This document shows, one piece after another, positions 19,899 to 59,862 of a DNA stretch of 64,000 nucleotides. The stretch is from a bacterium (GTDB lineage Bacteria > Oederibacteriota > JAAXVQ01 > JAUVAV01), in NCBI GenBank assembly GCA_021108215.1, contig JAIORK010000032.1, forward strand, positions 62,001 through 126,000, in the 5' to 3' direction. Positions within the stretch are counted from its first letter, which is position 1; the number at the start of each line of letters is the position of its first letter. The translations under genes were made by a program, and so were the position numbers. The notes under the pieces were generated by a model that saw only the letters and a program-made list of their open reading frames with translations, was not told the DNA's origin and did not search any database.

Positions 19899-20042
19899 AA
19901 GCCGGTTAGAATGCTTGTTTTTAAAGAAAATCGGCACTGTCAACGCACAACCAAGCAAGCTTCGACGATATGGCCTACTATGACGATGCCCCTTCGTATT
20001 GATGCGTTTTTTTTCTTTAAAAATAAGCATTCTAACCGGCTT
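19899..20042 (+). mobile_element. Hairpin element (MITE-like), copy 1
   Basis: Nearly perfect 32-nt inverted arms (left from AAGCCGGTTAGAATGC, right ending GCATTCTAACCGGCTT) flank about 80 bp. The inner part starts CGGCACTGTCAACGCAC and ACCAAGCAAGCT, and is shared in reverse orientation with the element at 27665. No coding capacity is evident. Confidence 0.7.
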
Positions 20043-27664: not shown

Positions 27665-27803
27665 GGCATCCGGAGTAGCTGTTTGTAAAGGAAAAAACGC
27701 AGCATCACGATAGCTGGGACATTGGTGAACACTATCGTCATAGCTTGCTTGGTAGTGCGTTGACAGTGCCGGTTTTCCTTTACAAACAGCTATTTCGGAC
27801 GCC
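27665..27803 (-). mobile_element. Hairpin element (MITE-like), copy 2, between flgK and flgL
   Basis: Arms of 31 nt (left GGCATCCGGAGTAGCTG ending GTAAAGGAAAA, right TTTTCCTTTAC ending TTCGGACGCC) pair with few mismatches. The reverse complement of the inner 77 bp shares CGGCACTGTCAACGCAC, ACCAAGCAAGCT and GACGATA with the element at 19899, while the outer arms differ. It splits the flgK-flgL pair and could affect their co-expression. Confidence 0.7.
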
Positions 27804-28929: not shown

Positions 28930-29430
28930 GTGATTGTTACAACACGTTTTTTCGGTGAAGTTGAAGTGGCGGATGAAAAGCTCCTGGAGTTTCCCAAGGG
29001 AATTATTGGGTTTGAAGATACCAGGAAGTTTTGTTTGCTGGCCTTGGAAAAAGTCCGGCCGTATGAATGGCTGCAGTGTATTGATAAACCGGAGCTGGCT
29101 TTTTTGGTGGTCCCGATCCGGATGATCCGGGCCGACTATGAACTTAAGCTTTCCCGGGAAGAATCCCGGGAGCTCAAACTTGAAACGGAAAACGCTGAGG
29201 TTGTTTTGGGAATCGTGGTGATCCCCAATGATCCCCAAGCGGCCACAGTCAATTTGCTCGCACCCATTGTGATCAATGAAAAGGTCCGGTTGGGGAACCA
29301 AGTGGTCAATGATCGCAATGGATATAAAACGCGCCAGAGTATCAAGGAAGAAAATCAAGACAAAGCCAGGGAGGGCGAAAATCATGTTGGTGCTGACAAG
29401 AAAGAGGAACCAGTCGCTGGTCATCGGTAA
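28930..29430 (+). CDS. fliW: Flagellar assembly factor FliW
   Basis: This 166-aa protein has the FliW core: FGEVEVADEKLLEFPKGIIG, then FEDTRKFCLL, FLVVPIRMI and NLLAPIVINEKVRLGNQVV. FliW binds both flagellin and CsrA, so free flagellin releases CsrA repression. The start is a GTG at 28930 behind AAGGAGGG. The gene overlaps csrA by 47 bp and lies just upstream of the two flagellin genes. Confidence 0.93.
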   Translation: MIVTTRFFGEVEVADEKLLEFPKGIIGFEDTRKFCLLALEKVRPYEWLQCIDKPELAFLVVPIRMIRADYELKLSREESRELKLETENAEVVLGIVVIPNDPQAATVNLLAPIVINEKVRLGNQVVNDRNGYKTRQSIKEENQDKAREGENHVGADKKEEPVAGHR

Positions 29431-29611
29431 TGATATCGAGATCCAGATCCTGGAAGTAAGCGGCGAGCAGGTGCGCATCGGTATTAAAGCGCCGCCGTCC
29501 GTACGCATTTTGCGCAAGGAATTGTTTGATGAGATTCATCATCAGAACCTTGCGGCAGCGGTAAATCCGGCGATGCTTGACAATTTGAAAAAAATTAAAA
29601 AAACGGATTAA
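29384..29611 (+). CDS. csrA: Translational regulator CsrA
   Basis: This 75-aa protein is a standard CsrA: MLVLTRKRNQSLVIGNDIEI, then ILEVSGEQVRIGIKAP and a VRILRKELFDEI helix. CsrA dimers bind GGA motifs in hairpin loops and block ribosome access. The ATG at 29384 lies inside fliW behind GGGAGGG. The nearest likely targets are the flagellin leaders downstream. Confidence 0.96.
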   Translation: MLVLTRKRNQSLVIGNDIEIQILEVSGEQVRIGIKAPPSVRILRKELFDEIHHQNLAAAVNPAMLDNLKKIKKTD

Positions 29612-29730
29612 AACCGGCAGTGAAACAGTGCAAAAGGAAGTGCAAGCAACATCCGGAACTTAAATTATGTCTGCGATAACAAACCATTGCATGGGGAGGA
29701 TGCGATCGCTGTCAGATATATTTGAGGATA

Positions 29731-29766
29731 CGGCAAGGATGCCGAAATACACATCAAGGAGGATGT
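29731..29766 (+). promoter_or_regulatory. Two CsrA-type hairpins in flagellin 1 leader
   Basis: CGGC-AAGGAT-GCCG (29731-29744) and ACATC-AAGGAG-GATGT (29751-29766) each present GGA in a six-base loop. The second loop contains the Shine-Dalgarno of the flagellin ATG at 29772. This matches the known CsrA target layout and the two-site hag leader of Bacillus. Confidence 0.65.
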
Positions 29767-29771
29767 AAATC

Positions 29772-30596
29772 ATGGGATTCGCAATCAATCACAATGTACC
29801 ATCAGTCGCAGCGTTAGGTGCTTTGGACAAAACCACCAACAGCATCGGTAAATCACTTTCCAAACTTTCCACCGGTCTTCGGATTGTTAAATCAGGAGAT
29901 GATGCCTCCGGATTGGTTATTAGCGAGCGCATGCGTGCTCAGATCAATGGTCTGAACACCGCCAAGCTTAATGCCCAGGAAGGGATCAACATGCTGGCCA
30001 CGGCGGAAGGTGTGCTCAACGAAATTCACAGCATCATGCAGCGTTTGAATACTCTGGCGGTTCGGGCGGACAACGATGTTACCATAGCGGCCGGATCTTC
30101 AGAACTTCAGGCTTTGCAGGATGAAAACGACGCATTGGTCAGTGAAATTGATCGTATTGCAGGCTATGCCACTTTCAACGGTGTGACATTGTTGGACGGC
30201 TCGGTCTCGGGTAACCTACAAGTGGGTCCGGGAGCCGGCGGAGACAATGTCATTGGGGTTAATCTCGGTGTAGTTGATGCAACCACTTTGGGTGTCAATG
30301 CACTGACATTGGGTGATGGGGGTGCCGCAATTACCGCCATCATTGCTGCGATAGAGACCTTGGGTTCAACCCGGGGTGATCTGGGTGTGGCCATGAATCA
30401 GCTGGAACATACAGTGGTCAATCTGGATATTATGATTGAGAACACGGTTGCTTCTGAAAGCCGAATCCGTGATGTGGACATGGCAGCTGAAATATCCAAC
30501 TTCACTCGACTCCAGATATTGCAGCAGTCAGGAACGTCCATGTTGGCTCAAGCCAATGCCCAACCACAAGCAGTTCTCAGCCTACTCCAAGGGTAA
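29772..30596 (+). CDS. fliC: Flagellin 1
   Basis: This 274-aa protein has typical flagellin ends: MGFAINHNVPSVAALGALDK, then LSKLSTGLRIVKSGDDASGL, and the C-terminus SNFTRLQILQQSGTSMLAQA followed by NAQPQAVLSLLQG. It has only a short central domain, so the filament surface is mostly D1. It is 22% shorter than the common 350-aa type, and near-identical at its ends to flagellin 2. The start follows AAGGAGG within a CsrA-type hairpin. Confidence 0.96.
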   Translation: MGFAINHNVPSVAALGALDKTTNSIGKSLSKLSTGLRIVKSGDDASGLVISERMRAQINGLNTAKLNAQEGINMLATAEGVLNEIHSIMQRLNTLAVRADNDVTIAAGSSELQALQDENDALVSEIDRIAGYATFNGVTLLDGSVSGNLQVGPGAGGDNVIGVNLGVVDATTLGVNALTLGDGGAAITAIIAAIETLGSTRGDLGVAMNQLEHTVVNLDIMIENTVASESRIRDVDMAAEISNFTRLQILQQSGTSMLAQANAQPQAVLSLLQG

Positions 30597-30615
30597 TTGG
30601 TTATTTCTGAAAAAG

Positions 30616-30639
30616 GGGATGCACCAGTCGGTGCATCCC
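30616..30639 (+). terminator. Hairpin after flagellin 1
   Basis: GGGATGCACC-AGTC-GGTGCATCCC is a perfect 10-bp stem. The T-tract is weak (GAATTTT), so some read-through into flagellin 2 is likely. Confidence 0.55.
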
Positions 30640-30647
30640 TGAATTTT

Positions 30648-30675
30648 GTAGGGGCGACCGGCCGGTCGCCCCTAC
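30648..30675 (+). repeat. 28-bp perfect palindrome (REP-like)
   Basis: GTAGGGGCGACCGG is followed by its exact complement. It differs in the middle from the other palindromes but keeps the GTAGGG/CCCTAC ends. Confidence 0.85.
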
Positions 30676-30866
30676 GCCGTAATTATCCCGCTTTTTTCTA
30701 AAATAAAATTTAAGAATTATTAAAATTGATGCGAAGTAAAAGATTGTGGAAGCTCAAGATGGTCTTGGTCATCCAAAAGCGTGAATCCGCTTTTTGTGAC
30801 TGTCGCATGCACGGCCGGCGTGTAGCAGACACAGACAGAGGAATTCTGCCCTGGATGTTTGAGATA

Positions 30867-30880
30867 CGGCAGGGATGCCG
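30867..30880 (+). promoter_or_regulatory. CsrA-type hairpin in flagellin 2 leader
   Basis: CGGC-AGGGAT-GCCG has the same stem as the flagellin 1 site, with GGA in the loop. The second site around the Shine-Dalgarno (30891-30897) keeps AAGGAGG, but its flanking stem is reduced to about 2 bp. Confidence 0.55.
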
Positions 30881-30906
30881 GAAAACTATCAAGGAGGACT
30901 GGAATC

Positions 30907-31728
30907 ATGGGATTTGCAATTAATCACAATGTACCATCGGTGGCGGCGTTGGGCGCTTTGGACCGAACCACCGGAAGTATCGCCAAGTCTTTGTCAAAAC
31001 TCTCTACAGGTTTGCGTATTGTCAAATCAGGAGATGATGCCTCGGGTTTGGTGATTTCTGAGCGCATGCGTGCTCAGATCAATGGTCTGAACACGGCCAA
31101 ACTGAACGCGCAGGAAGGTATTAATATGCTGTCCACAGCTGAAGGGGTCTTAAATGAGATCCACAGCATTATGCAGCGTATGAATACTCTGGCGGTCCGG
31201 GCGGACAATGATGTCACGATCGCAGCCGGCTCCTCGGAACTGCAGGCATTGCAGGATGAAAGTGATGCCTTGGTCTCGGAAATTGATCGTATCTCAGGTT
31301 ATGCCACGTTCAATGGCGTGACCCTGCTGGACGGTTCGGTTTCGGGAAATCTGCAGGTCGGTCCGGGTGCAGGCGCTGCCAATTCAATCGCAGTTAATAT
31401 CGGGACAGTTGACGCTGCAGCATTGAGTGTTGACTCTTTGACCCTGGGAGACGGCGGCGCTGCCATCACGGCAATTAATGCTGCGATAGAGACCCTGGGT
31501 TCCACCCGCGGCGATCTTGGCGTGGCGATGAACCAATTGGAACACACGGTGGTCAATCTGGATATTATGATTGAGAACACGGTTGCTTCTGAAAGCCGAA
31601 TCCGTGATGTGGACATGGCAGCTGAAATATCCAACTTCACTCGACTCCAGATATTGCAGCAGTCAGGAACGTCCATGTTGGCTCAAGCTAATGCACAACC
31701 GCAGGCGGTATTAAGTCTGCTCCAGTAA
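30907..31728 (+). CDS. fliC: Flagellin 2
   Basis: This 273-aa protein is a close paralogue of flagellin 1, with the same MGFAINHNVPSVAALGALD start and C-terminal helices. Differences cluster in the middle (about residues 155-185). A 140-bp stretch near the 3' end is identical to flagellin 1 at the DNA level. The ATG at 30907 is preceded by AAGGAGG; an in-frame upstream start would translate the CsrA hairpin and is unlikely. Confidence 0.95.
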   Translation: MGFAINHNVPSVAALGALDRTTGSIAKSLSKLSTGLRIVKSGDDASGLVISERMRAQINGLNTAKLNAQEGINMLSTAEGVLNEIHSIMQRMNTLAVRADNDVTIAAGSSELQALQDESDALVSEIDRISGYATFNGVTLLDGSVSGNLQVGPGAGAANSIAVNIGTVDAAALSVDSLTLGDGGAAITAINAAIETLGSTRGDLGVAMNQLEHTVVNLDIMIENTVASESRIRDVDMAAEISNFTRLQILQQSGTSMLAQANAQPQAVLSLLQ

Positions 31729-31799: not shown

Positions 31800-31875
31800 G
31801 TAGGGAACGGTCGCGACCGTTCCCTACTACGCAGGCGCGACCGTTCCCTACTACGCAGGCGCGACCGTTCCCTAC
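31800..31875 (+). repeat. Palindrome plus two 24-bp half-copies
   Basis: GTAGGGAACGGTCG followed by its complement is a 28-bp perfect palindrome (31800-31827). Two tandem 24-bp units starting TACGCAGG and ending GCGACCGTTCCCTAC (31828-31851, 31852-31875) repeat its right half. This lies between the flagellin terminator and fliD. Confidence 0.9.
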
Positions 31876-31983
31876 GGGATTGTTATTTTATTTATTATTA
31901 AAAAAACCCTTAAGAAACCGGCGCAATGGTACGAAAACATATATAGGAAGTGTGACAAGGCAATTAGGAAAGGGGTCGTCACC

Positions 31984-44065: not shown

Positions 44066-45505
44066 ATGCAAACAAATTTTACGCCCGGAAATATGAGTCT
44101 GTTCGAACCGTCAGATCCCGCCGTTTTTACGGATTTCACGGTGGAGTCCGGGCAGGAGGAGGCAGCCATTGATTTTGAGGATTTGATTTCGCGCAGGATA
44201 AAATCCGTTGAGTCTGAAAAAGCGGAAGCGGCAGAAAAAGCGGAAGAGGCGGAAGAGGCGGAAGAGGCGGAAGAGGCGGAAGCGGCGGAAGCGGCGGAAG
44301 AGGCGGAAGAGGCGGAAGAGGCGGAAGCGGCGGAAGCGGCGGAAGCGGCGGAAGCGGCGGAAGCGGCGGAAGCGGCGGAAGACGCAGAGGGTCAGGAGAG
44401 TCTCTTGATGGATGATGGAGCGGTGTTGTTGCCCAATCAAGGCGGTAAGGAAGCATTGGAGTCAGGGTCGGATAATCAGGCACAGCGGCAAGCGACGCTT
44501 CATGCGGCTGCCCGGCAAACATTGCTCCAGGCCGGTACGGTCATGCAAAGCGCCGCACAAACGGATTTTCAGAATACTTTTGTGAAGCGGGAAAATCTTG
44601 GGGCGACAGTTCCGGCGGATATCTTCCCGGATGGTTGGGAAGTTTTATTGGAAGACCAGCCTAAAAGTGGTGCCGCTAAAAAAATGATTTCAACGGACCC
44701 GGAAACGCTTTCACAAATTGAATCGGTGTTGATGGAGAAATCCGGATCCCAAAAAGTTGAAACACAAATGCTGGAATTGTCTTTTGGCGGCAAAGAACTG
44801 CCGGGTGAAAAAAAACCACAAGTTGAAAAAGGACTCTTGACCCAGACTGCGGAAACATTTTCGGGATCTTCCACGCCGGTCCAGAACCGGTCTTCGCTGC
44901 TTAGTCTGTCCGGTGCAGGCCAAACAGATGTGGCCACGCTTAACCACGAAGAAAAGTCCGCTGTTCAGGAGTTGAGTGCGGAAATATCCACGGTCAAAAG
45001 TTCAGAGACCGTTGCTTCCGGGCCGGTGTCCAGAGTAACGGCAACTACACCGGCACAGCTGCTGGCACGCATGGATGAAGTCCAAAAACAGATGGTGGTG
45101 AAGGAGTTTGTGCAGATCACCAAGCAGGCGGTTCACGGAAAGGAAACCCAATTGATTGTGGAGCTCCATCCTCCTGAACTGGGACGTATTCGTATACGCC
45201 TGGATTCACACGGCGATCAGCTCAATGCCCAACTCACCCTGCAAGACCGGCACGTGGGGGAATTTTTTCAGGAGCGCCTGGAGTCCATACGCAAGAGTCT
45301 GGAAGCGGCAGGCGTTCGTCTCAATGATTTAAGCCTGGAGATCAAGCAGCATTTTTCCCGGGAGGCACACAGGGAGCAACCGGATGATCAAGGAATGAGC
45401 GGGTCCGGAAATGGGGATCACCACCCCAACGCGGCATCCGGCTCGAAACATACTGTTGCCGGCAAGACGGCCATTCAATCAGGAAAGGTGGATATGCTCG
45501 TATAA
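44066..45505 (+). CDS. fliK: Hook-length control protein FliK with Ala-Glu repeat
   Basis: This 479-aa protein has the FliK C-terminal domain: LIVELHPPELGRIRIRLDSH, then LNAQLTLQDRHVGEFFQERL and ESIRKSLEAAGVRLNDLSL. Near the N-terminus residues 53-109 are 19 units of Ala-Glu-x. The middle is Ser/Thr/Gln-rich and probably unfolded, as expected for a molecular ruler. It sits between fliJ and flgD. Confidence 0.92.
   Translation: MQTNFTPGNMSLFEPSDPAVFTDFTVESGQEEAAIDFEDLISRRIKSVESEKAEAAEKAEEAEEAEEAEEAEAAEAAEEAEEAEEAEAAEAAEAAEAAEAAEAAEDAEGQESLLMDDGAVLLPNQGGKEALESGSDNQAQRQATLHAAARQTLLQAGTVMQSAAQTDFQNTFVKRENLGATVPADIFPDGWEVLLEDQPKSGAAKKMISTDPETLSQIESVLMEKSGSQKVETQMLELSFGGKELPGEKKPQVEKGLLTQTAETFSGSSTPVQNRSSLLSLSGAGQTDVATLNHEEKSAVQELSAEISTVKSSETVASGPVSRVTATTPAQLLARMDEVQKQMVVKEFVQITKQAVHGKETQLIVELHPPELGRIRIRLDSHGDQLNAQLTLQDRHVGEFFQERLESIRKSLEAAGVRLNDLSLEIKQHFSREAHREQPDDQGMSGSGNGDHHPNAASGSKHTVAGKTAIQSGKVDMLV
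44222..44392 (+). repeat. 9-bp tandem repeat inside fliK
   Basis: Nineteen 9-bp units of the form GCGGAAGMG (mostly GCGGAAGAG or GCGGAAGCG) encode Ala-Glu-Glu or Ala-Glu-Ala. Because the unit is a multiple of three, copy number can change without a frameshift. Confidence 0.95.
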
Positions 45506-59073: not shown

Positions 59074-59862
59074 ATGGACCCGGAAGAAGTAAAAGATTGG
59101 CAAGCATATAAAGAACAGAATGATCCCGATGCCTATACGCGGATATGCGAACGCCATTTGCGGGCGGTGAAACGCATTGTTGGGCGGATGTATATATATA
59201 TCAGCGATGGCGCACTTGATCAGGAGGATCTGGTGCATGCGGGTGTGGTGGGATTGATTAATGCGATCGAAAAATTTGATCCCGGTTTCAATATTCCATT
59301 TATTGAATTTGCCTATAAGCGTATCCGCGGGGCTGTTTATGATGAGTTACGGACATTGGACGGATTTTCATCCCGCAGTCGGCGCCAAAAACAGAATTTA
59401 GAAAAAATAAAAGAATATTTGCAGCACAAATTTTTACGGTCTCCCACAGAAGAGGAAACCGCTGATGAGATGGGAATCAGTCTGGACCAGTTTCGCATTT
59501 TGCAGAATAGTCTTAAAACGGTAAAGCCGGAACCATTGGATTGGAAGCATGAAGAGACCATCGGTGTTTCCCGGGGCATGGAAAAAATGAAGAATTGGAT
59601 TCCCAATGTAGATGGGTTGTCCCAGGCGGAAAAATACCGGATTGTTGCCAGTCAAATTGATCAGCTGCCGAAGCGGTCGCGCCTTGTATTGGGATTGTAT
59701 TATCGGGAAGGACTTACTTTAAAAGAAATAGCCCGCGTCATGGATTTGACCGAATCCCGAATTTGTCAAATCCATGCTGCAGCGATAGAGGTGCTTCAGC
59801 AACAATTGCAGGATATCGAGACGGCATTCGGCGGTAAGATCCGCATAAAAGTAAGCGGATAA
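59074..59862 (+). CDS. fliA: Flagellar sigma factor FliA (sigma-28)
   Basis: This 262-aa sigma factor of the FliA/WhiG type has region 2 (GALDQEDLVHAGVVGLINAI, then KFDPGFNIPFIEFAYKRIRG), region 3 (SPTEEETADEMGISLDQFRI) and region 4 (RSRLVLGLYYREGLTLKEIA, then RVMDLTESRICQIHAAAI). It would transcribe late flagellar genes. I could not find a convincing sigma-28 promoter in the flagellin leaders. Confidence 0.93.
   Translation: MDPEEVKDWQAYKEQNDPDAYTRICERHLRAVKRIVGRMYIYISDGALDQEDLVHAGVVGLINAIEKFDPGFNIPFIEFAYKRIRGAVYDELRTLDGFSSRSRRQKQNLEKIKEYLQHKFLRSPTEEETADEMGISLDQFRILQNSLKTVKPEPLDWKHEETIGVSRGMEKMKNWIPNVDGLSQAEKYRIVASQIDQLPKRSRLVLGLYYREGLTLKEIARVMDLTESRICQIHAAAIEVLQQQLQDIETAFGGKIRIKVSG

Follow-up and report, generated by a model that had tools for sequence, protein, structure and literature searches.

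Predicted two-site CsrA operators on both flagellin leaders of an uncultured relative of Candidatus Goldiibacteriota

Flagellin synthesis in an uncultured bacterium, a relative of Candidatus Goldiibacteriota, is very probably subject to a FliW-CsrA-flagellin feedback in which both flagellin leaders serve as two-site CsrA operators. We arrived at this reading by analyzing a 64-kb stretch of its genome (termed the window), which carries the flagellin genes fliC1 and fliC2. In other bacteria CsrA grips such hairpins in flagellin leaders and switches flagellin production off (PMC4894983, PMC7652899). According to the mechanism we propose, the leaders of both flagellin mRNAs would be bound by a CsrA dimer, first at an upstream C-ANGGAN-G hairpin (site 1). 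The dimer would then reach across 20-21 nt to a GGA within the Shine-Dalgarno (SD) sequence (site 2) and block ribosome entry. FliW, the product of an upstream neighbour gene, would bind CsrA and lift the repression. Unexported cytoplasmic flagellin, finally, would bind FliW, so that CsrA is freed and flagellin synthesis is shut off.

A first-pass annotation of the window had put forward both this feedback and an unequal repression of the two flagellins. The feedback is supported by the protein families, the key residues, the genome-wide uniqueness of the motif, its conservation across phyla and its lack in flagellated genomes without CsrA or FliW, the unequal repression is not. Two-site CsrA operators on flagellin leaders, together with FliW, have already been found in B. 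subtilis and C. jejuni, and they are predicted here for a relative of a candidate phylum. In the openly accessible papers searched, we found neither a report for the candidate phylum nor a cross-phylum survey of the leader signature. The analysis would extend a known flagellin checkpoint, experimentally established elsewhere, to an uncultured candidate phylum.

The flagellar cluster and its regulators

The window contains a flagellar cluster with the gene order putative flgM, flgN, flgK, flgL, fliW, csrA, fliC1, fliC2, fliD and fliS. The identity of flgM, which has no Pfam match, was inferred from its position and its C-terminal residues. Pfam matches of the two regulators (PF02623, PF02599) confirm that, as annotated, fliW and csrA lie directly upstream of the flagellins (Table 1), which are themselves ~93% identical to each other. 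The fliW and csrA genes overlap by 47 nt (29384-29430) in different frames, which suggests that antagonist and regulator may be translationally coupled.

Searches against the PDB match FliW to 2aj7 (E 9e-20) and 5dmb (E 3e-18), and the closest chain for CsrA is 5dmb_D, the CsrA of a FliW-CsrA complex. N55 of CsrA is essential for FliW binding, to which V/I51 contributes, and R44 is needed for RNA binding (PMC7829508). All features of the FliW-bound type of CsrA, namely the C-terminal extension, V/I51 (here I51), N55 and the RNA-binding R44, are present in the translation. FliW and CsrA retain the residues for RNA binding and for the contact between them.

The order and phylum were represented by 40 genomes, in four of which flagellin, csrA and fliW co-occur, namely that of the window (G000), G006, G007 and G010, with csrA and fliW present once each. 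The other 36 genomes, which have no flagellins, lack both csrA and fliW. Since the two genes are found in exactly the four flagellated genomes, CsrA of the candidate phylum is tied to flagella. The nearest flagellated relatives within the order, G006 and G007, were deposited as Candidatus Goldiibacteriota DeMMO3_7 and Firestonebacteria W9, respectively.

Hairpins in the two flagellin leaders

The leader of fliC1 has two hairpins with GGA in the loop, the second of which contains the SD sequence, whereas fliC2 retains the first and has largely lost the second stem, of which 2 bp are left; both descriptions agree with the first-pass annotation. The two GGA motifs are 21 nt apart in fliC1 and 20 nt apart in fliC2. 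Both leaders therefore have a second site when this is defined as a GGA over the SD sequence at a distance of ~18-24 nt, that of fliC2 being without a real stem. An RNA folding program recovered both hairpins in fliC1 and only the first one in fliC2. For the last 49 nt of the leader the predicted folding energy is -11.1 kcal/mol in fliC1 (z = -3.6; none of 200 shuffles equally stable) and -8.8 kcal/mol in fliC2 (z = -1.1). The minimum-energy fold pairs A with U within the first loop, so that site 1 there takes the form of a 5-bp stem capped by an AGGA tetraloop.

Two further GGA motifs were considered and not taken as CsrA sites, neither having a C-ANGGAN-G loop. One is a hairpin upstream of fliC1 (ATTGCAT-GGGGAGG-ATGCGAT, 29686-29706) that was not found in the relatives, the other a CCTGGA ~25 nt upstream of site 1 that is conserved in the second-flagellin leaders.

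Table 1. Genes and predicted regulatory elements of the fliW-csrA-flagellin region (window coordinates)
Feature	Position	Strand	Description
fliW	28931..29430	+	GTG start inferred; PF02623, E 7.8e-34; predicted CsrA antagonist and flagellin sensor
csrA	29384..29611	+	PF02599, E 3.4e-24; 75 aa, C-terminal extension
fliC1, predicted CsrA site 1	29731..29744	+	CGGC-AAGGAT-GCCG hairpin
fliC1, predicted CsrA site 2	29751..29766	+	ACATC-AAGGAG-GATGT hairpin enclosing the Shine-Dalgarno
fliC1, flagellin 1	29772..30596	+	ATG at 29772; 274 aa; PF00669 + PF00700
Terminator-like hairpin 3' of fliC1	30615..30640	+	consensus match only
Predicted sigma-28-like promoter of fliC2	30710..30737	+	TTAAG-N15-TGCGAAGT; 10/10 consensus positions
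fliC2, predicted CsrA site 1	30867..30880	+	CGGC-AGGGAT-GCCG hairpin; ACGGCAGGGATGCCGG identical in three genomes
fliC2, predicted CsrA site 2	30889..30898	+	TC-AAGGAG-GA at the Shine-Dalgarno; 2-bp stem only
fliC2, flagellin 2	30907..31728	+	ATG at 30907; 273 aa; PF00669 + PF00700

Occurrence in the genome

As a background we used 366 kb of the same genome, comprising 189 SD-bearing genes and 155 GGA-containing SD sequences. Hairpins with a GGA hexaloop and a stem of at least 4 bp, located between -80 and -18, precede four of the 189 genes, and both flagellins are among these four. The other two genes have AT-rich hairpins with loops that do not fit C-ANGGAN-G, so that a hairpin with this loop is found upstream of the flagellins only (2/189). 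GGA-containing SD sequences within a stem are likewise rare, with 3/155 for stems of at least 5 bp and 10/155 for stems of at least 3 bp. The flagellin leader hairpins are not due to chance.

The same leaders stand out in searches with a covariance model, R2, which was trained on the leaders of 19 flagellin genes from other phyla, leaving out the phylum under study. It replaced an earlier model, R1, whose training set contained genomes under test. A first look at this genome gave 1328 candidates, of which the best 150 were scored. Among these, R2 ranks the leader of fliC1 first (42.2 bits, E 1e-8) and that of fliC2 second (35.4 bits, E 1e-6), and the next candidate follows 12 bits lower, at 23.5 bits. 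The lower candidates that were inspected are ordinary strong SD sequences without site 1, for example that of a ribosomal-protein-like gene. In G006 and G007, too, R2 gives both flagellin leaders the first two ranks. An Rfam scan of the whole window yielded no family at the gathering threshold.

The SD sequence of csrA itself lies in GCC-AGGGAG-GGC, which reads GCC-AAGGAG-GGC in G006 and G007, and a further CAAGGA is present upstream (29337-29384). Autoregulation of csrA through this hairpin is possible; the hairpin overlaps the conserved coding frame of fliW and scores only 18.9 bits with R2.

Survey of flagellin leaders across bacteria

We surveyed 86 flagellin starts from 39 genomes, 31 of which have both FliW and CsrA (75 leaders), while eight lack one or both (11 leaders). 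The test for site 1 demanded an NNGGAN loop only, the loop A and the C-G closing pair not being required. By this test site 1 is present in 36 of the 75 leaders from genomes with both proteins, compared to 1.6 expected from dinucleotide shuffles, and is missing in about half of them. At the level of genomes, 25 of the 31 have a GGA hexaloop hairpin upstream of flagellins. When GenBank loci are included, the first loop position is A in all 43 matches and the closing pair is C-G in 39 of the 43, in agreement with CANGGANG, the optimum for CsrA/RsmE (PMC4894983). Covariation of the four inner stem pairs is partly circular, since these pairs were part of the selection. The outer pairs, which were outside it, are paired in 25/35 and 23/35 cases and show many two-sided changes of pair type.

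The strict form, C-ANGGAN-G, is found in 24 of the 31 genomes with FliW and CsrA, but in none of the eight flagellated genomes (0/11 leaders) that lack CsrA, FliW or both (Fisher p = 1e-4, the genomes being phylogenetically non-independent). Moreover, flagellins encoded no more than 12 kb from fliW carry site 1 more often than the others (15/18 vs 21/57, p = 9e-4, with the same non-independence of genomes). From this comparison a simple signature emerges, a hairpin with the C-ANGGAN-G loop, its GGA preceding that of the SD sequence by 17-33 nt in most cases. In some 40 bacterial families this signature tracks whether FliW and CsrA are present, and it predicts which flagellin paralogues CsrA would control. 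Of the 19 multi-flagellin genomes in the survey, 12 have site 1 on only part of their flagellins and seem to place only these under CsrA control.

Alternative explanations

The hairpins might be plain structure that promotes mRNA stability or ribosome standby independently of CsrA. Site 1 is indeed a stable hairpin near the SD sequence, and in B. subtilis CsrA binding also alters the amount of the hag transcript, so that leader structure can affect stability (PMC6529632). A purely structural role, however, has no need of a loop A and a closing pair that stay fixed while the stem varies, nor does it account for the lack of the strict form in the eight genomes without CsrA or FliW, and we consider it very improbable. 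The hairpins around the SD might also be a chance by-product of strong AAGGAGG SD sequences, in which case only site 1 would be a real CsrA site. In line with this, short SD stems occur in many species, and stems of at least 3 bp are not significantly enriched near fliW (12/18 vs 25/57, p = 0.11). The same stems are nevertheless found in 23 of the 31 genomes with both proteins compared to one of the eight others (p = 0.003, genomes non-independent). They are also rare among the GGA-containing SD sequences of this genome, and in hag and flaA CsrA has been proven to bind at the SD GGA (PMC7652899, PMC4894983). We therefore regard a by-product as unlikely, and operators with two CsrA sites remain our preferred reading.

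Within this two-site reading the leaders may still be tuned differently, as the first-pass annotation had suggested, with CsrA repressing fliC1 strongly and fliC2 weakly. The SD hairpin has 5 bp in fliC1 compared to 2 bp in fliC2, CsrA of C. jejuni binds more tightly to the flaA leader than to other flagellar targets including flaB (PMC4894983), and in the survey site 1 is often confined to part of the flagellins of a genome. However, fliC2 still has both GGA motifs at a spacing of 20 nt, and stem strength need not track the affinity for CsrA, since most SELEX hairpins have at most 4 pairs (PMC7652899). In G006, moreover, the asymmetry is swapped, the second flagellin having the 5-bp SD stem and the first one 3 bp, and in G007 both stems are 3 bp. 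Across the three genomes the asymmetry thus does not follow gene position. We view unequal tuning as conceivable but doubtful.

Transcription of the flagellin genes

Probably the two flagellin genes differ in their transcription. Perfect matches to TTAAG-N15-NRCGAA, a sigma-28-like promoter motif, are found upstream of putative flgM (24971), fliC2 (30710) and fliD (31910). The one of fliC2 is located 197 nt upstream of the ATG, and an aligned motif precedes the second flagellin by 195 nt in G006 and by 185 nt in G007, where the surrounding DNA has diverged. The other conserved islands in the three second-flagellin leaders are CCTGGA, ACGGCAGGGATGCCGG (site 1) and the SD sequence. Since three genomes share this upstream promoter, it is unlikely that transcription of fliC2 starts only beyond the hairpins.

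For fliC1 no sigma-28-like promoter was recognized in G000, G006 or G007, the best match having 7/10 positions. A sigma-54 promoter was also considered for the first flagellin and rejected, as a possible site is present in G006 only and none in G000 and G007. The genome encodes FliA-type sigma factors, one of them at 59146-59811 of the window, as well as two RpoN. A terminator-like hairpin stands between fliC1 and fliC2. The transcript that covers putative flgM to csrA is likely to end with fliC1, which would be reached by read-through from csrA, and fliC2 is likely to form a separate unit. As a tentative extension of the feedback model, CsrA might be a single-purpose flagellin regulator that is passed on and lost together with flagella, with fliC1 on the mRNA of its regulators and fliC2 under its own sigma-28 promoter. 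If so, CsrA of the candidate phylum would not be a global carbon regulator, and the two flagellins would be controlled at different levels.

Comparison with known systems

The gene order in Bacillus resembles the flgM-flgN-flgK-flgL-fliW-csrA-flagellin-fliD-fliS order found here, and in B. subtilis, too, fliW and csrA are just upstream of the flagellin gene hag. The latter has its own sigma-D promoter, unlike the first of the tandem flagellins described here, which seemingly lacks one. Shared with BS1 and BS2 of hag is the arrangement of two CsrA sites, one of which is on the SD sequence (PMC7652899, PMC6529632, PMC8523840).

In C. jejuni flaA two ANGGA hexaloops bind CsrA at ~50 nM (PMC4894983). 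As in its SL1 and SL2, two such hairpins are adjacent here and the second covers the ribosome-binding site; the GGA spacing of 21 nt equals that of fliC1, and both organisms have FliW and a second flagellin gene (PMC4894983). The promoters differ, since flaA has a 45-nt 5' UTR and flaB depends on sigma-54 (PMC4894983), whereas fliC2 has a sigma-28-like promoter ~160 nt upstream and no promoter of its own was recognized for fliC1.

Treponema denticola has the flgN-flgK-flgL-fliW-csrA cluster in common with the window, and CsrA sites near the SD sequence have been proposed for more than one of its flagellin genes, flaB1 and flaB2 (PMC9481697). These sites are predicted only, and the flagellins are periplasmic spirochaete FlaB proteins, unlike those encoded here (PMC9481697). 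A two-site CsrA operator on the flagellin leader has also been predicted, with genetic support, for C. difficile.

Repeats in the window

Two related palindromic elements of ~140 bp are located at 19899-20042 and 27665-27803, one of them between flgK and flgL. They have terminal inverted repeats of ~31 nt, the arms of both copies are 84% complementary, and they look like small non-autonomous mobile elements. GC-rich palindromes in the gaps after fliC1 (30645-30680, GGGGCGACCGGCCGGTCGCCCC) and after fliC2 (31800-31883, tandem CGCGACCGTTCCCTACTACGCAGG) look like dispersed intergenic repeats. Finally, a 9-nt tandem repeat with many copies, GCGGAAGAG/GCGGAAGCG, at 44183-44415 probably encodes an Ala-Glu-rich stretch.
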